A stretch of DNA of 33,206 nucleotides from Dehalococcoidia bacterium (GTDB lineage: Bacteria > Chloroflexota > Dehalococcoidia > JAUSIH01). The position numbers and the translations under genes are program-made. Shown here in pieces: positions 21,081 to 30,559 of this stretch. The DNA is taken from positions 1 through 33,206 of the forward strand of contig JAUSIH010000116.1 of assembly GCA_030648205.1 (NCBI GenBank). Direction: 5' to 3'. Under the pieces are notes generated by a model, which did no database searches, was not told where the DNA came from, and worked only from the letters and a program-made list of their open reading frames with translations. Within the stretch, counting starts at the first letter, position 1, and the number at the start of each line of letters is the position of its first letter.

Positions 21081-21971
21081 CTATAGTGGCGCCATCGCCA
21101 CGAGCCGGCCGGTAATGATGAGCCTGTCCCAATAGGCGTAGTCGGGATAACAGGTGATGAGAGTGACGACAGGCTCCTCTGTCCGAGCAAACACATCCAG
21201 TTGTTCCGGTTTGACCAGCTCCCATCTCACCACACGGTACAAGAATCTGGTGTCGTCGGTGAAGACGATGATGTCCACTATCTGCCCCGAGTCCAGGAGC
21301 TTGGGGATTTCCGGCAAGCGCTTGAAGACCTCGCCTTCCCGGAGCAGCGGGCTGCTGATGTGGCCCGACAGCACCATATTGTTCCGCTCTCCAGGGTTGG
21401 CCGTTCCGTTGTGATGGCCCACCGCCCATTTGGGCGTCTCCCACTCCAGGATGCCGTTATTCCATACGGTGTTGAGTTCCACGACCTTGGAGTCCACTCC
21501 GATAGACGGGATCTGGATGCGCCGGGCCGGTGGAGTCTCGCCAACGGTTCGCGGCAGGTCGTCCAGCTTCACCGGGCGCAGTCCGCCGGCCTGCCGCGCC
21601 GGGGCGTTGGCTCGCGCAGCCTCTGCGGAGGGCACAAGGCTTGCGGTGGCGGCAGCGACACCGGCAGGGTAGAGGTCAACGGCGGGGCCGTCGAGTGCGC
21701 TCTTACCGTCCTTTGCCAGAGCGCCCGCCTTCGGCGTTTCCGAAGCACTGTCTCCAGGAAGACGGCTGACTTCGACCGTCTGCCAGCCTTCCGGGAGGCC
21801 GCGCTCCACGGCATCCGGCGCCGACGTGGCGCTCAGCCCCGTGAGTTGCGTGTAGGCGTAGGCGGCGAGTCCATAGTAGCCGCCCACAACGAGCATGAGC
21901 AGCCCGCCAGTGATTACCAGGCCCATGCCGACGCGGGCCGGCAGCGCCCTCTTTTTGCTCACGTTCGCCAT
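21081..21971 (-). CDS. Sortase family transpeptidase
   Basis: Sortases cut surface proteins at a sorting motif and link them to the cell envelope. The 296-residue protein has a basic start and one transmembrane helix (about 14-36), a long Ala-rich, Pro-containing linker (about 45-145) and a C-terminal sortase barrel (about 150-296). The catalytic residues are His204 in VLSGHISS, Cys274 in VTLITCYPD and probably Arg283 in WDRLIITGR. The ATG is at 21971. No protein with an LPxTG-like sorting signal is seen in the window, so the substrate is unknown. The gene lies 100 nt downstream of the sensor kinase with its own operator, which suggests control by the adjacent two-component system. Confidence 0.9.
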   Translation of the reverse strand: MANVSKKRALPARVGMGLVITGGLLMLVVGGYYGLAAYAYTQLTGLSATSAPDAVERGLPEGWQTVEVSRLPGDSASETPKAGALAKDGKSALDGPAVDLYPAGVAAATASLVPSAEAARANAPARQAGGLRPVKLDDLPRTVGETPPARRIQIPSIGVDSKVVELNTVWNNGILEWETPKWAVGHHNGTANPGERNNMVLSGHISSPLLREGEVFKRLPEIPKLLDSGQIVDIIVFTDDTRFLYRVVRWELVKPEQLDVFARTEEPVVTLITCYPDYAYWDRLIITGRLVAMAPL

Positions 21972-22006
21972 AGCAAGGCGAGCTTAGCAGACCTGCCGGG
22001 GCACAA

Positions 22007-22046
22007 GGTTACGCGCGATTTAGCGCAGGGTTAACAAAAGGTAAAC
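22007..22046 (-). promoter_or_regulatory. 40-bp tripartite operator upstream of sortase
   Basis: Read on the minus strand: GTTTACC (22046-22040), TTTT, GTTAACC (22035-22029), six bases, TAAA, six bases, GTAACC (22012-22007). The first two half-sites are 11 bp apart, as expected for an OmpR/PhoB-type dimer bound to one face of DNA. The site lies 36 bp upstream of the sortase ATG and matches a second site before the copper operon in spacing and orientation. Confidence 0.65.
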
Positions 22047-22071
22047 AAAGATGGGGTGAGGCTGCGGAATG

Positions 22072-23487
22072 CTACACCGGGGGCAAACGGATGGTGAACA
22101 CGCTGCCTCGCCCGATGTGACTCTCCGCTGCGATGATCCCTCCGTGGGTCTCCACGATAGCCCGTGCGATAGCCAGTCCCAGTCCCATGCCCCCTCTGCT
22201 CGCCGTGGAGGAATGGCGGCCTCGGTATGAGCGGTCGAAGACGTGCGGCAGCTCCTCCGGTGGAATGCCCACTCCGGCGTCCGTGACTCTGAGCCACGTG
22301 GCTTCCGGCCCCGTGCCCGCCGCGATGTGGACGCTCCCTCCCGAGGGGGTGTACTTGAGGGCGTTGTCCACGAGGTTGGAGACGGCCTGGGCCAGACGGT
22401 CCGGGTCTCCCCGCACCATCAACGGGTTGGCCTCGCAGATCACGTCCAGGTGGATGCCTCGGCGCTGGGACTCGGGCAGGAACCGCTGGTGCACCTGGCG
22501 GGCGACCATCGCCACATCCGTCTCCACGGGCCTGAAGTCCATGGTCCCCGTCTCGAAGCGGACAAGCTGCGTCAGGTCTTCCACCAGCCGATTGAGGCGG
22601 TCCGCCTCCCGTATAATACCTTGAACCAGCTTGGGACGGACGTCCGGGTCTTCGCTTCCACCCGCAGCCAGGGCCTCTGCCGCAGCCTTGATGCCCCCCG
22701 CGGGCGCCCGCAGCTCGTGGGTCACGTCAGCAAGAAAATGACGCCGCGCCTGCTCGGCCTCCTCCAGGCGGGCGCTCATGTGGTTGAAGTCGTCAGCAAG
22801 CTGCCCCACCTCATCTGACGATTGTACCGTCGCGCGCACCCCAAAGTGCCCCTGGGCGACCTGCCGGGCGGCCTGCCCGACTGTCCGTAGCGGCCGGACC
22901 AGAGTGTAGGCTATCCACAGGCTTAGCCCTATCAGAAGGACTCCCGCAAGGGCCGTCCCCGCGCCGATGGTGAGGCGTAGCTGCCGTTTTACGTCGTCCA
23001 CATGTCCCAGATCGTAGGAGAGGCGCAGGACGCCTATCACGCGCCCCCCGTCCTTGACAGACACGGCGGCGTAGAGTGCTTCGCCGCTCGCCTGCGTGGC
23101 GTGCGCGGCGCCGCTGGTGGCCTGACCGGCCAGCGCGTCCCGGACGCCGAGCTCCTCCATACGCTTGCCCACAAGCTGCGTGTCTCGCGCCCAGGAGGAG
23201 CCGAGCAGCACACCATCGGCGTCAATGACCAGAATACGCGTCACATCGCTGTTGGGGGTCCGCTGGCTATTAATGTGCGTCTGGATCTCCTGTGGTCTCT
23301 TTTGCGCGAGGATATCGGGAACGAAATCCTGTCCTATCCAGATAGCCTGCGATACCAGGTCAATTCGCATGCGTTCGAGATGAAAGCTCTCCAGGACTGA
23401 TGTCAGGTACAGCCCCAGCAAGAAGAGGAAGACCACCGTGGGCAGTCCAAAGGCCAGGGCCAGCTTCCAGCGGATGCTTCTAAGCAT
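22072..23487 (-). CDS. Sensor histidine kinase (HAMP/HisKA/HATPase)
   Basis: A membrane-bound kinase that senses an extracytoplasmic signal and phosphorylates the adjacent response regulator. Order of parts: first transmembrane helix (about 10-30), extracytoplasmic sensor region (about 31-172, CACHE-like in layout with VTRILVIDADGVLLGSS), second helix (about 173-196), HAMP (about 196-248), HisKA with phospho-acceptor His257 in DVTHELRAP, and HATPase with NLVDNALKYTPSGG, DAGVGIPPEELPHVF and GMGLGLAIA. I prefer ATG 23487, which overlaps the regulator stop as ATGCTTAG; an upstream TTG at 23505 lacks a good site. Total 471 residues. No obvious metal-binding cluster is seen in the sensor region, so the signal is open despite the copper context. 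Confidence 0.92.
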   Translation of the reverse strand: MLRSIRWKLALAFGLPTVVFLFLLGLYLTSVLESFHLERMRIDLVSQAIWIGQDFVPDILAQKRPQEIQTHINSQRTPNSDVTRILVIDADGVLLGSSWARDTQLVGKRMEELGVRDALAGQATSGAAHATQASGEALYAAVSVKDGGRVIGVLRLSYDLGHVDDVKRQLRLTIGAGTALAGVLLIGLSLWIAYTLVRPLRTVGQAARQVAQGHFGVRATVQSSDEVGQLADDFNHMSARLEEAEQARRHFLADVTHELRAPAGGIKAAAEALAAGGSEDPDVRPKLVQGIIREADRLNRLVEDLTQLVRFETGTMDFRPVETDVAMVARQVHQRFLPESQRRGIHLDVICEANPLMVRGDPDRLAQAVSNLVDNALKYTPSGGSVHIAAGTGPEATWLRVTDAGVGIPPEELPHVFDRSYRGRHSSTASRGGMGLGLAIARAIVETHGGIIAAESHIGRGSVFTIRLPPV

Positions 23488-24184
23488 GCGAGGGTTCTGC
23501 CGCAACGAACATGTATCCGACCCCGCGGACAGTGACGATGCGCTGAGGGCGCTCCGGGTGGGTCTCGACTTTTTCGCGGAGGCGTCGGATATGCACGTCC
23601 AGCGTCTTGGTATCGCCGAAGAAGTCCTGGCCCCAGACGGCGTCCAACAGAAACTCGCGCTTCAGCGCCCGGCCGGGGTGCGCGGCCAGGATGCGTAGCA
23701 GGTCGAACTCTTTGGGGGCCATCTCCACGTCACGTCCGCGAACAAGCGCCCGCCGCGCGTCCACGTTCAGGGTGATGTCCCCCGCCTCGATGCGGGAGGG
23801 CGTGTCGGCAGGAGCGCGCCCGCGAGACCTGCGCAGGACGGTGTCTATCCGGGCGATGAGCTCCGCCATGCTGAAGGGCTTGACCATGTAGTCGTCGGCG
23901 CCCAGACGCAGGCCGCTGACCCGATCAATCTCGTCGCCGCGCGCCGTCAGGAAGATGACGGGCAGGGCTGTGCCCTGCTGGAGGATGCGGCACACCTCCC
24001 TGCCGTCCATGTCAGGCAGCCCGATATCCAGGAGGACGAGATCAGGAAGAGCCAGACGCGCCTTCTCCAGCCCCTCGGCGCCTGTTTGCGCCGCCATGAC
24101 GTGATAGCCCTCGCGCTCAAGCTGATAACGCAGCGACGCGCGGAGAAGCTCATCGTCGTCCACCAACAGGATTTTTGCTCTCAT
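23480..24184 (-). CDS. OmpR/PhoB-family response regulator
   Basis: A 234-residue two-domain regulator. The receiver domain has the acidic pair at residues 9-11 (VDDDE), phospho-acceptor Asp53 in LLDIGLPDMDG, Thr80 (FLTARGD) and Lys102 in DDYMVKPF. The C-terminal winged-helix DNA-binding domain (about 135-230) shows LTPKEF-type residues (MAPKEFDLLRILAAHPG) and the end VRGVGYMF. It is the first gene of a minus-strand unit with the kinase (8-nt overlap) and the sortase. The intergenic region upstream, shared with the divergent copper operon, carries 11-bp-spaced GTTTACC repeats, the type of site this family binds, so the regulator probably controls both sides. Confidence 0.94.
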   Translation of the reverse strand: MRAKILLVDDDELLRASLRYQLEREGYHVMAAQTGAEGLEKARLALPDLVLLDIGLPDMDGREVCRILQQGTALPVIFLTARGDEIDRVSGLRLGADDYMVKPFSMAELIARIDTVLRRSRGRAPADTPSRIEAGDITLNVDARRALVRGRDVEMAPKEFDLLRILAAHPGRALKREFLLDAVWGQDFFGDTKTLDVHIRRLREKVETHPERPQRIVTVRGVGYMFVAAEPSHA

Positions 24185-24243
24185 ACGTCGCCTTCAGTAT
24201 AGCAAACGAGGGCGCGTCCACTGCTGAGCGCGCAACGCGCCAC

Positions 24244-24283
24244 GTTTACCAAATGTTTACCGGCGGATAAACCCCCAGTAACC
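24244..24283 (+). promoter_or_regulatory. 40-bp tripartite operator upstream of copper operon
   Basis: Read on the plus strand: GTTTACC (24244-24250), AAAT, GTTTACC (24255-24261), six bases, TAAA, six bases, GTAACC (24278-24283). Length, spacing and the central TAAA are the same as in the site upstream of the sortase. It lies between the divergent response regulator (60 bp away) and cupredoxin (55 bp away) genes, so it could serve both. Confidence 0.65.
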
Positions 24284-24338
24284 CGCCCGGATAGGCTGAA
24301 GGGTAACGTGAGATTAGAGAAGGCTAGCGAGGCGGTAC

Positions 24339-24710
24339 GTGGAGCTGTTGCTGGTCCTGGCGGGAGTGGCGCTCGGGTTGACCGTGGCGGTCGTCGTGTG
24401 GGCGGCGTGCAGGTCTTCTCGGCAGTCCAGGCCGGGCACGGACGGGGCACAGGAGGTCCAGATTCTGGTGCGACGGGGCTACGTGCCCAATCGGGTGCGG
24501 GTGCGGCGTGAGAGGCCGGTCCGCATCACCTTTGACCGCCAGGAGAACGGCGAGTGCACGGAGTGGGTGGTCTTTCCAGGGCTGGGCGTCGCCTCCATGC
24601 TCCCGGCTTTCCGCAGAACGGTCCTGGAGTTTACGCCGCATACGCCGGGAGAGTTCGAGTTCCGGTGCAAGCTGGGGGCCTGCCGTGGTCACCTTATCGT
24701 GACAGCGTAG
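24339..24710 (+). CDS. Membrane-anchored cupredoxin with altered ligand loop
   Basis: A 123-residue protein with one N-terminal transmembrane helix (about 2-22) and a cupredoxin domain (about 38-123) of the kind often found beside or fused to copper ATPases. The family's typical pattern has a Cys before VVFP and a CGMxM loop near the end. Here Cys73 lies in [10 protein letters not shown] and the loop is [11 protein letters not shown], so Cys110 is kept while the two Met positions read Leu and Cys (Cys115). Copper binding may thus be thiol-rich. The GTG start at 24339 follows GAGGCGG. It is the first gene of the plus-strand island and is 49 nt before copA. Confidence 0.75.
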
Positions 24711-24759
24711 GGGGACACATCCCCTATTGGTGAGTCACATCTGGTTGCTGGAGGTCGCT

Positions 24760-27345
24760 ATGAACGTCTCAGTGCGGACAAAGAAAGAGCGCGTCACCAT
24801 CCCCGTGACGGGGATGACGTGCGCATCATGCGTGGAGCATATCGAGACGGCACTGAAGGACGTGCCAGGCGTGGCCTCGGCGCGGGTCAACCTGGCGCTG
24901 GAGCGCGCGCTGGTGGAGTATGACCCGGCGGTGGCCGGTGTCTCGGCCATGGTCAAGAGCATTCAGGAGACGGGCTACGGCGTCGCCGCCACCCAGGCGA
25001 AGTTCCTCGTGCTGGGCATGATGGGGTCCCATTGCCAGACGCGCATCCAGCAGGCCGTGGGCGAGACTCCCGGCGTCCTCAAGGTCACCGTTAACCTGAG
25101 CGCGGACACGGCCATTGTGGACTACCTTCCTACCGTCGTCTCCTCCGGCCTGGTCGCCAAGGTTATCCGCGAGCTGGGCTATGAGGTCACGGAGAAGACC
25201 GAGGGCCAAGACGCGCTGGACCGCGAGCGCCAGGCGCGGGAGCAAGAGCTTGCGCGGCAGCGGCGCAACCTGTTTATCGCTTGGCCTCTGGGCCTTCTGG
25301 TCATGCTGGGGACGTTTCGCGAGTACTGGATTCTGCCAGCATTCGTTCCCGCGTTCCTGGGCGACAAGTGGGTCCTCTGGGCCCTGACGACGCCGGTCAT
25401 CTTTGGGCCGGCGCGTCAGTTCTTCGTCAACAGCTTCAACGGCCTCAAGCGCGGCCTGACGGACATGAACCTCCTGTACGCCACGGGCATCGGCGCAGCC
25501 TATCTCATTGCCGTCATCAACACCGTCTTCCCGGACGCTGGCTTCGGTGGAGAGAAGGCCACCTTCTACGAGTCAGCCGTGCTTCTGACCGGCTTCGTTA
25601 TCCTGGGACGCTACCTGGAGGCCGTCACACGGGGCCGCGCCTCGGAGGCCATCCGTCGGCTGATGAAGCTCCAGCCGAAGAGGGCGCGGGTCCTGCGGGA
25701 TGGACAGGAGTTCGACATCAAGGCGGAGGAGGTCGAGGTCAGCGACCTTCTGCTCGTCCGCCCTGGCGAAAGCATCCCCGTGGACGGCGTGGTCGCGGAA
25801 GGGTACTCCGCGGTGGACGAGTCCATGATCACCGGCGAGAGCCTGCCGGTGGAGAAGAAGGCCGGGGACAAGGTTATTGGCGGGACGATGAACAAGACGG
25901 GAGCGTTCAAGTTCCGGGCGACCCAGGTGGGCAAAGAGACCGCTCTCGCCCAGATTATCCAGCTCGTGGAGAACGCCCAGGCCACAAAGGCGCCCATCCA
26001 GAAGCTGGCCGACATGGTGGCGGGCCACTTCATCCTCGGGGTCCATATCCTGGCCCTGGGCGTCTTCCTGTTCTGGTTCTTCGCGGGCTATAACCTCTGG
26101 TTCAGCCCGGAGAGCCGGTTCATCCTGTCGCCCTACACGCTGACGGGCCTGGGAGTCTTCGGGTTCTCGCTGCTCCTCAGCGTGACGGTGCTGGTCATCT
26201 CCTGCCCCTGCGCCGTGGGGCTGGCGACTCCCAGCGCCATGATGGCCGGCTCCGGCAAGGCGGCTGAGCACGGCATATTGTTCAAAGGCGCGGACGCTAT
26301 CGAAAGCCTCAGCAAGGTCCAGGTGGCCATCTTTGATAAGACAGGGACGCTGACCGTGGGCAGGCCGTCGGTGACGGACGTCGTGGCCGCAGGGCCTTCC
26401 CAGAATGACGTGCTGCGCTGGGCGGCGATCGCCGAGGTGAACTCGGAGCATCCGCTAGGCGAGGCCATCATCCGGGGCGCGCGCGACCGCACCCTGCCCG
26501 TGCCAAGTCCTGAAACGTTCGATTCCATCCCCGGCCACGGCGTGGAGGCGCGGCACGAGGGCAGGGTCATTCTTCTCGGCAACCGCAAGCTCATGCGGGA
26601 CCGGGGCGTGGACATAGAGCCTCTGCTGGTGGAGGCGGAGCGCCTGGAGAACGAGGGCAAGACCGCCATGTTCGTGGCCCATGACGGCCATGCCGCCGGC
26701 GTGGTGGCGGTGGCGGACACGCTCAAGCCCACGTCCGCCGCGGCGGTGGCCCAACTCCACCGCATGGGCATTGAGGTGGCGATGATCACCGGCGACAACC
26801 TGCGCACGGCGCGGGCCATCGCCCGGACGGTGGGCATTGACCGCGTGCTGGCGGAAGTCCTGCCACAGGACAAGGCGAACGAGGTCCGCAAGCTGCAGGC
26901 GCAGGGCAAGAAGGTCGCGATGGTGGGCGACGGCGTCAACGACGCCCCAGCCCTGGCCCAGTCCGACGCGGGCATCGCCATCGGCAGCGGGACCGATGTG
27001 GCGAAGGAGACGGGCCACGTCATCCTCATCAAGGACGACATCCTGGATGTTGTCGCCGCCATCGAGGTGGCCCGAGCGACCATGCGCAAGGTGAAGGAGA
27101 ACCTCTTCTGGGCCTTCGCTTACAACACGGCCAGCATCCCTCTCGGGGCGGGCTTGCTCTATCCGGCCTTCAAGCTCGTGGTGAGCCCGGAGCTGGCGGC
27201 TTTTCTGATGGCCATCAGCTCCCTCACCGTGACACTGAACACTCTGCTCATGAGAGGCTTCGTTCCCAGCATCAAGCGACAACGGGAGTCTGAGCGGTTC
27301 GCGGCCCCAGCCGAGGCAGCGGCTGTCGGAGGAGGGAACAGGTAG
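24760..27345 (+). CDS. copA: Copper-translocating P1B-type ATPase (CopA-like)
   Basis: A Cu+ export pump of 861 residues that uses ATP to move copper out of the cytoplasm. It has a normal N-terminal metal-binding domain (GMTCASC, Cys21 and Cys24), then a second HMA-like domain whose motif is reduced to GMMGSHC (only Cys92). Eight membrane helices are expected. The ion-path motif is CPC at 482-484; actuator TGES ([12 protein letters not shown]), phosphorylated Asp526 in [16 protein letters not shown] and [11 protein letters not shown] complete the ATPase core. The late helices carry YN ([12 protein letters not shown]) and MxxSS (MAISS), the signature of the Cu+ subgroup. The ATG at 24760 follows GGAGG; a TTG at 24727 is less likely. 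Confidence 0.95.
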
Positions 27346-27354
27346 GAGGTGACC

Positions 27355-27558
27355 ATGAATGAAAACGCGCGACTCGTGGGGACGCTCGTATCGTTCGGCA
27401 TCGCTCTGGCGGCGGCGGTGGCTTTCTTCGCCGTCACCGGCGTGGGGGGTTACACGGCGGTGGCGCGCTACGGCGGGGCAGCGTGGGTGTTCCTGCTTGC
27501 CCTGATTGTGGCGATGCCGACCGTGCTACCTCTCTTCAAGAGGCGTTCTGGGGGTTAG
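27355..27558 (+). CDS. Small two-helix membrane protein, copper island
   Basis: A 67-residue protein with two transmembrane helices (about 7-28 and 41-61) and a basic C-terminus (FKRRSGG). ATG 27355 lies six bases after AGGAGG, which itself overlaps the copA stop, so the two are tightly coupled. No Cys and only hydrophobic content is seen; no family is recognised. A role as an accessory subunit of CopA or of the next membrane protein is inference from position. Confidence 0.7.
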   Translation: MNENARLVGTLVSFGIALAAAVAFFAVTGVGGYTAVARYGGAAWVFLLALIVAMPTVLPLFKRRSGG

Positions 27559-27577
27559 AGGAAAGGAGAGTGTCGTC

Positions 27578-27880
27578 ATGCTACGCCCTGTCGTCTTCGC
27601 CAACGCGGTGGCTGCTGTGTCCGCGATTGGGTCTGTGGCCTGTGCGCTCCTATCGCTGGCTGCGCCGGGTCTTCTGCTGAGCATAGCCCAGGGGTGGGCC
27701 CACACCCTTGATCTGACAAAGATTCAAAGGCCCGGCTTCACGCTAGGGGAAGCCCTTCTGGGCCTGGTGACCTTCACCATATTCATGTGGATCGGCGGCT
27801 GGCTCCTGGCCACGATTTACAACCGGTGGAGTGGCGCAACGTCCACAGCGTCCACGCCCCCCGGCGGCCTCCGGCTCTGA
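27578..27880 (+). CDS. DUF5676-like small membrane protein
   Basis: A 100-residue protein with two transmembrane helices (about 6-30 and 55-80). The pattern VVFANAVAAVSAIGSVACAL, then QGWAHTLDL and a second helix ending WLLATIYNRW fits the DUF5676 family as I remember it; His42 in the WxHxxDL motif and the closing YNR are its most typical features. Function of the family is unknown, but members recur in metal-resistance clusters. The ATG at 27578 follows AAAGGAGAG. Longer upstream frames overlap the previous gene and are not supported. Confidence 0.72.
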   Translation: MLRPVVFANAVAAVSAIGSVACALLSLAAPGLLLSIAQGWAHTLDLTKIQRPGFTLGEALLGLVTFTIFMWIGGWLLATIYNRWSGATSTASTPPGGLRL

Positions 27881-29644: not shown

Positions 29645-29937
29645 ACGGGTTTCCCCGGCCGTCCCGCCGTCCTCGCTGGGGACTGCCCCTGGTGCTGGCG
29701 CTGGGCCTGTGGCTCTGCACCCTGCCCCTCGTGGGGCTTGCCCTGGCCCTGGGCCTGCTGCCGTGGCAGGACGCATGGCCCGCCGTGGGCCTGCTGCTGG
29801 CGGGCGATCTGCTGGCGTGCTTCGTGCTGTGCCACACCGTTCTGAGAGGCTGGACCGAGGCTCTGACCTGCGCGCCGCGCCTCGACTTTGCGCGCGTCAT
29901 GCCAGCGGAAGGTAAAGCCTGTGCCTCAACGCAATAG
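29641..29937 (+). CDS. Small membrane protein, unknown
   Basis: A 98-residue protein, GTG start overlapping the previous stop (GTGA), so translation is coupled. Basic N-terminus (RPSRRPRWG), two transmembrane helices (about 15-36 and 46-68) and a short cytoplasmic or outer tail with Cys residues (LLACFVLCHTVLRG, ALTCAPRL, GKACASTQ). No family is recognised. The end overlaps the next gene by 17 nt. Confidence 0.65.
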   Translation: MNGFPRPSRRPRWGLPLVLALGLWLCTLPLVGLALALGLLPWQDAWPAVGLLLAGDLLACFVLCHTVLRGWTEALTCAPRLDFARVMPAEGKACASTQ

Positions 29938-30559
29938 CGGCAACAGGGCGCGTGTGCGCCGTCCCCGGCCCTTCTGGAAGCGCGCCCTGCTCCCCGGGGG
30001 TCTGGCCTTCCTGGGGATTGCGGTGGTGGCGGCCTTGGTCTGGCTGGGCAGGCCGGAGGAGAACGGCGCCGACGCTCGTGGGGCAGACCTGACAGAAGGA
30101 GCTGTCCACATCTTCTATGGCAGCACCTGCCACGACTGTCCACCCTACGTGGCGGAGCAGGCGATGCCTGCCCTCCAGACGCGCCCGTGGCCGGGGGGAG
30201 TCAAGGTGCACGATTTCCAGAAACCAGAAGAGCTAAAGTTGCTCACCCGAACGCTCGATGAAGTAGGCTTCAGTGCGTCTCCAGCCGATGTCGCTCGTGT
30301 CCTCACTCCGGCGACATTTCACGTTACGGTGCTCCGCTTGGACCAGAGCAGGATCATCATGCTGGGGCACCCGCCGGGGAGCCTGGTCCGGGAGGTGCTG
30401 TCCCTGAGCAACCCGCCGCCTCGGCTGGTGGTCAGCCAGGAAGAGATGCATGGGGCGGCTACCAAGTACGAGGTCTGGGACTTTCAGGGGGCCGTGGCGA
30501 GCTTCCCCATCGGGACGCCCCTGAAGGACGCCCTTGCCCGGATGAGCGCCTCAATGTAG
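29921..30559 (+). CDS. Membrane-anchored thioredoxin-like protein
   Basis: A 212-residue protein with a basic start, one transmembrane helix (about 22-43) and an extracytoplasmic thioredoxin-like domain. The strand AVHIFYGSTCHDCPPYV carries a CxxC pair (Cys70, Cys73) in the right place for a redox-active thioredoxin fold; a second strand VTVLRLDQSRIIMLGHPPG and cis-Pro-like region follow. The next gene encodes a CcdA-type channel, the usual electron donor for such proteins. The GTG at 29921 follows GGAAGG; the longer frame from 29888 is inside the previous gene. Likely role: keeping metal-site Cys residues reduced outside the cytoplasm, e.g. in the copper proteins of this cluster (inference). 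Confidence 0.75.
   Translation: MPQRNSGNRARVRRPRPFWKRALLPGGLAFLGIAVVAALVWLGRPEENGADARGADLTEGAVHIFYGSTCHDCPPYVAEQAMPALQTRPWPGGVKVHDFQKPEELKLLTRTLDEVGFSASPADVARVLTPATFHVTVLRLDQSRIIMLGHPPGSLVREVLSLSNPPPRLVVSQEEMHGAATKYEVWDFQGAVASFPIGTPLKDALARMSASM

Follow-up and report, generated by a model that had tools for sequence, protein, structure and literature searches.

Genes and sites at the locus

In this work we describe a locus within a 33,206-nucleotide stretch of DNA (the window) from a Dehalococcoidia bacterium, in which a two-component system lies between a sortase gene and an operon for copper export, and is flanked by two 40-bp sites that we refer to as operator A (copper side) and operator B (sortase side; Table 1). 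The copper operon begins with a gene for a membrane-anchored cupredoxin-like protein, followed by a CopA-like ATPase for which an alternative ATG at 24760 is possible, and the translation of the sortase shows the His, Cys (TLITC) and Arg motif residues. Operator A sits in a divergent intergenic region that it has in common with the regulator gene, while just 35 bp separate operator B from the sortase ATG. The sensor part of the kinase is an extracytoplasmic Cache-type domain. Elsewhere in the genome, a second sortase (contig C57), a 62% identical paralogue directly behind an acyl-CoA dehydrogenase gene (L269:5736-6569), is without the operator box, and no LPXTG anchor protein scored above the Pfam cut-off anywhere in the genome.

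Table 1. Features of the locus in window coordinates; the -10-like hexamers are candidates read from the sequence.
Feature	Position	Strand	Details
Sortase	21081..21971	-	PF04203 6e-22; all class models below cut-off
-10-like hexamer TAAGCT	21981..21986	-	20 bp past last half-site of operator B
Operator B, sortase side	22007..22046 (read 22046-22007)	-	GTTTACCTTTTGTTAACCCTGCGCTAAATCGCGCGTAACC; four half-sites in 11-bp phase: GTTTACC (22046-22040), GTTAACC (22035-22029), GCTAAAT (22024-22018), CGTAACC (22013-22007)
Sensor histidine kinase	22072..23505	-	PF23846 Cache_WalK 2.7e-8, PF00672 HAMP, PF00512 HisKA, PF02518 HATPase_c
OmpR/PhoB-type response regulator	23480..24184	-	Receiver PF00072, winged helix PF00486; recognition helix KTLDVHIRRLREKV
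Operator A, copper side	24244..24283	+	GTTTACCAAATGTTTACCGGCGGATAAACCCCCAGTAACC; four half-sites in 11-bp phase: GTTTACC (24244-24250), GTTTACC (24255-24261), GATAAAC (24266-24272), AGTAACC (24277-24283)
Second copper-side -10 candidate TAGGCT			Starts 8 bp past last half-site of operator A
-10-like hexamer TAACGT	24304..24309	+	20 bp past last half-site of operator A
Membrane-anchored cupredoxin-like protein	24339..24710	+	First copper-operon gene; PF13473 8.2e-14
Cu+-type P1B ATPase, CopA-like	24727..27345	+	Two N-terminal HMA domains; TIGR01511 568 bits, cut-off 397
DUF5676 protein	27506-27880		Two membrane spans; after CopA
Secreted CxxC protein	29888-30559		No family match; ahead of Lgt

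Sequence, rarity and promoter geometry of the two operators

As an earlier, sequence-only reading of this DNA had stated, both sites read GTTTACC-N4-GTTWACC-N6-TAAA-N6-GTAACC over exactly 40 bp, and both have the same orientation toward the gene downstream, which is the cupredoxin/CopA operon for operator A and the sortase for operator B. That reading recognised two half-sites 11 bp apart, which stands, and treated TAAA and GTAACC as additional blocks; these are better described as the third and fourth half-sites of the same 11-bp phase. Parsed jointly, the two operators thus give GTTTACC / GTTWACC / GMTAAAY / MGTAACC, strictly phased at 11 bp, and positions 3-5 of all eight half-sites form a TWA core (T, then A or T, then A). 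Direct repeats of ~7 bp in strict 11-bp phase define the tandem operators of OmpR/PhoB-type regulators, and judged by these features both elements are almost certainly operators of a regulator of this type. The two sites are identical at 23 of 24 half-site positions, compared with 4 of 16 spacer and 9 of 40 flanking positions, in agreement with the earlier remark that the blocks are conserved while the spacer bases differ. Retention of the half-sites but not of the spacers and flanks argues against a copied repeat or recent duplication, and is as expected for selected protein contacts.

The resemblance between the two sites is also rare by several measures. Of 3000 dinucleotide shuffles (mean 20.8), just one reached the 27/40 identity of the best-matching 40-mers from the two intergenic regions, and tandems of four TWA repeats in 11-bp phase arose in such shuffles with P ~5e-5 on the sortase side and 1e-4 on the copper side; operators A and B are the only tandems of this kind in the whole window. 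A genome scan gave no sign of a motif occurring at chance frequency: the exact two-repeat pattern GTTTACC-N4-GTTWACC was located twice in 2.69 Mb, in both cases at the operators. Since the 40-bp pattern was derived from these same two sites, the genome count is on its own post hoc, a problem to which the shuffles, the reversed-pattern controls and the common -10 spacing described below are less exposed. Candidate matches elsewhere in the genome at two mismatches were rejected, as they lie inside open reading frames or do not have repeats 3 and 4.

To place the operators in a wider context, the 40-bp pattern was searched at up to three mismatches in 393 genomes of the class, yielding matches in seven genomes including this one, and none with the reversed pattern. 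Among the six outside matches, three are directly upstream of pstS (G177, G305, G238), one precedes large surface-protein genes (G130) and one is close to the gene for an ABC binding protein (G142). A broader four-repeat TTWACC pattern was found in 57 of the 393 genomes, compared with only a handful for its reversed control. Many of the matches examined lie upstream of pstS, with or without an mgsA-like gene in between, while in G130 and G142 the genes downstream often encode secreted or surface proteins, and in one case a pilin. This distribution indicates that tandem boxes of the OmpR/PhoB type are widespread and that operators A and B are, by their sequence, members of this class. The shorter two-half-site pattern was near background in 100 relatives. 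Four-repeat TTTACC boxes are unusually numerous in G142 (25 matches) and G130 (12), with examples at L145, L191-L193, L199 and L201; besides the surface and secreted proteins they often precede receiver-only proteins, which suggests a large surface regulon in these genomes.

The genome's own pst, nas and nrt promoters (gene names at these loci reflect our reading of the translations) have tandem arrays with 11-bp repeats that are built like operators A and B. The array of the pst operon (contig C11) comprises six repeats, GTTAACA, GTTAAGA, CTTCACA, GTTAATA, ATTAAGC and GTTAAGA, and six-repeat arrays that are nearly identical to each other lie upstream of two further operons, for nitrate reductase (C24) and for a nitrate-type ABC transporter (C62). 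These nas and nrt arrays, near-identical over 60 bp on different contigs (L291:2257-2318, G000:C24; L292, G000:C62:3854-3913), include the half-sites CTTTACA, CGTAACC and AGTAACC, the last two of which are identical to the fourth half-sites of operators B and A, respectively. A further four-repeat box, GTTAGCA/GTCAGCA/GTTAAGC/GTTAAAC, which resembles the pst box, lies on the plus strand ~115 bp upstream of a CoA-transferase gene (G000:C16:9465-9502; L290 ~3966).

A TANNNT hexamer occurs exactly 9 bp past the last half-site at the pst, nas and nrt arrays, and at the same distance in 23 of 53 tandem arrays of relatives (11-bp TTWACC-type arrays of 4 to 8 half-sites, found class-wide), compared with at most 9 for any offset in shuffled sequence. 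Unlike these other arrays, which usually end 9 bp from the hexamer, operators A and B have TANNNT at 20 bp, equal to 9 + 11 and hence one helical turn beyond the pst/nas/nrt spacing, and the in-phase position that this leaves before the hexamer holds no recognisable fifth half-site. Both sites therefore display the fixed, helically phased spacing to a -10 hexamer that characterises OmpR/PhoB-type tandem operators. On account of this common in-phase spacing, operators A and B look like promoter-proximal operators in activator-type orientation. No sigma-70 promoter passed a consensus scan, and a sortase transcript starting from TAAGCT would begin a few bases from the sortase ATG.

These data bear on two alternatives. 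That the sites resemble each other by chance, or are a small dispersed repeat of no regulatory role, is very improbable: although there are just two copies and the pattern was defined after the fact, such an origin is disfavoured by the shuffle tests, the dissimilar spacers and flanks, the recurrence of the architecture at pst, nas and nrt, and the -10 spacing that the two sites have in common. It is also unlikely that the local regulator binds but represses, or that one operator alone is functional. OmpR-family proteins can repress, the position of the operators relative to the transcript start is itself a prediction, and operator B lies close to the sortase ATG; yet orientation and in-phase -10 spacing are the same at both sites, the pst, nas and nrt promoters are likewise in phase, and the geometry is that of activated promoters.

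Candidate regulators of the operators

The two-component system between the sites is of the OmpR/PhoB family, as the earlier reading had proposed. In its combination of Response_reg and Trans_reg_C domains with a PhoB-type recognition helix, the local regulator conforms to the RegX3/PhoP/WalR/MtrA clade, and its best solved match is RegX3 (2oqr), with a helix of KTLDVHVKRLRSK compared with KTLDVHIRRLREK in the local regulator. All scores against named-family NCBIfam models fell below cut-off, such that no single named member could be assigned, and in a tree of 112 regulators the protein forms a long, unplaced branch. A helix of the form RTVDVHxRWLR is found in the closest regulators of the class, as well as in the genome's PhoP. 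With six Trans_reg_C proteins in total, the genome encodes five OmpR-type DNA-binding proteins besides the local regulator. Of these candidates the local regulator is, from sequence considerations, quite probably the protein that binds both operators.

Comparison with characterized systems provides further insight into recognition. The PhoP protein of Streptomyces coelicolor has a RegX3-like helix. It binds 11-nt repeats of GTTCACC (PMC4415409; PMC6754071), one base from GTTTACC, a preference that fits the reading of GTTTACC by a RegX3-like helix. Operators A and B also resemble the PHO boxes of PhoB, PhoP and RegX3 in their 7-bp half-sites and 4-bp spacers, arranged as direct repeats along the direction of transcription beside the -35/-10 region (PMC4415409, PMC6754071), but differ in what they precede, since the targets of those systems are phosphate genes rather than a sortase and a copper operon. 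A reading in which the sites are PHO boxes for the genome's own PhoP, making sortase and copper export phosphate-regulated, would draw on the tandem architecture common to pstS promoters, on the matches directly upstream of pstS in three relatives and on the closeness of the S. coelicolor repeat (PMC4415409). We consider this reading improbable, and disfavour PhoP as the binder, because the pstS array of this genome has half-sites of the form GTTAANA, which are separable from the GTTWACC of operators A and B (permutation p 0.0014) and to which the operators do not conform, and because the recognition helix of this PhoP, RTVDVHIRWLREK, is unlike that of the local regulator.

The nitrate genes present a different case. 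Here the half-sites are not statistically separable from those of the copper and sortase operators (permutation p 0.12), which retains as a rival an orphan protein on contig C29 that we take, from domain similarity, to be GlnR-like. Binding by this or another OmpR-type regulator would place the sortase and copper genes in a nitrogen (nitrate) response. GlnR boxes are of the form GTnAC-n6-GTnAC (PMC3087709) and share with operators A and B both the 11-bp tandem repeats and an OmpR-type reader; a similar form precedes the nitrate genes of this genome, where the six-repeat arrays are likely to be GlnR-type boxes outside actinomycetes and have AGTAACC and CGTAACC in common with the operators. In operators A and B, however, GTnAC appears only in the fourth of the four half-sites and not in the first two, which are of the GTTTACC type, so that the paired GlnR form is not present, and the leading GTTTACC pair is absent from the nas and nrt arrays. 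With the neighbouring regulator gene offering a simpler candidate, we regard control by the GlnR-like or another OmpR-type protein as unlikely.

The explanation that we prefer, and judge on balance probable from the sequence features, is that operators A and B lie close to their promoters and serve a regulator of the OmpR/PhoB family, for which the protein encoded between the two sites is the likeliest candidate; its binding and its role as an activator are what we infer. In the crystal structure of M. tuberculosis PhoP a tandem dimer occupies 7-bp repeats whose spacer is strictly 4 bp, and three or four repeats are bound more strongly (PMC4832192). By analogy, four subunits of the local regulator, as two head-to-tail dimers, would occupy the four 7-bp half-sites with their 4-bp spacers. 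The last half-site would adjoin the -35 region, 20 bp from the -10-like hexamer, where the regulator could contact RNA polymerase and help it to initiate at the cupredoxin-CopA operon and at the sortase gene. Given its location in the divergent region, operator A may also set expression of the regulator and kinase genes.

A putative sortase and copper regulon

The signal for this predicted regulation may be envelope or copper stress. The kinase matches WalK/PhoR-type models, and the local two-component system did not pass the copper/silver models of the CusRS/CopRS/CzcRS type (TIGR01386, 204 bits against a cut-off of 293; TIGR01387, 176 bits against 279), with no copper-sensing signature found in it by family models. 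Because the kinase fails the copper-kinase models, we consider copper itself a rather doubtful signal. In Corynebacterium glutamicum, CopRS is an OmpR-type two-component system similarly divergent from copper-export genes, and one direct-repeat site in the divergent intergenic region drives both directions (PMC3140484). That system differs in its repeat (TGAAGATTT, with a 2-bp linker, two repeats and one site in the genome), in a kinase that senses copper, compared with a local kinase without a copper-sensor family match, and in having no sortase. In the proteobacterial dedicated sortase system (TIGR03784/TIGR03787) the sortase is likewise encoded next to a two-component system of its own, an adjacency in which the present locus resembles it; the local proteins fall far from its models, with 20 bits for the sortase (cut-off 158) and 150 bits for the regulator (cut-off 336).

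The proposal of the sequence-only reading, a single regulon joining two-component system, sortase and copper genes, is supported in part: the operators and the regulator family are borne out, while the box is absent at 29 sortase loci of the class, none of them from a close relative with the same gene cluster. Relatives of the kinase occur among Chloroflexota records, in keeping with an origin of the DNA in that phylum. Homologues of the kinase in the class and in named genomes are without a sortase/copper neighbourhood, and no close relative keeping the gene cluster was found, hence no cross-species footprint. A small regulon that joins the two-component system, the sortase and copper export is nonetheless plausible from the sequence. 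A more specific scenario is conceivable but somewhat doubtful: with the four-repeat operator present in duplicate, sortase and copper export would come under the joint control of a two-component system dedicated to them, and defence against metal or envelope stress would include a remodelling of how surface proteins are attached. The type of operator is already known; the pairing of sortase and copper targets appears to be undescribed in the literature searched, in which no counterpart of a sortase-copper two-component regulon was found.

If the local regulator binds both operators, the locus would provide a small and concrete example of a regulon from an uncultured lineage, tying surface protein attachment to copper export. 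Furthermore, the promoter rule that emerges here places the -10 hexamer 9 bp, or a further helical turn, past the final half-site of 11-bp tandem boxes. In the genomes of this class it would allow phosphate, nitrogen and other OmpR-type regulons to be predicted from sequence alone.
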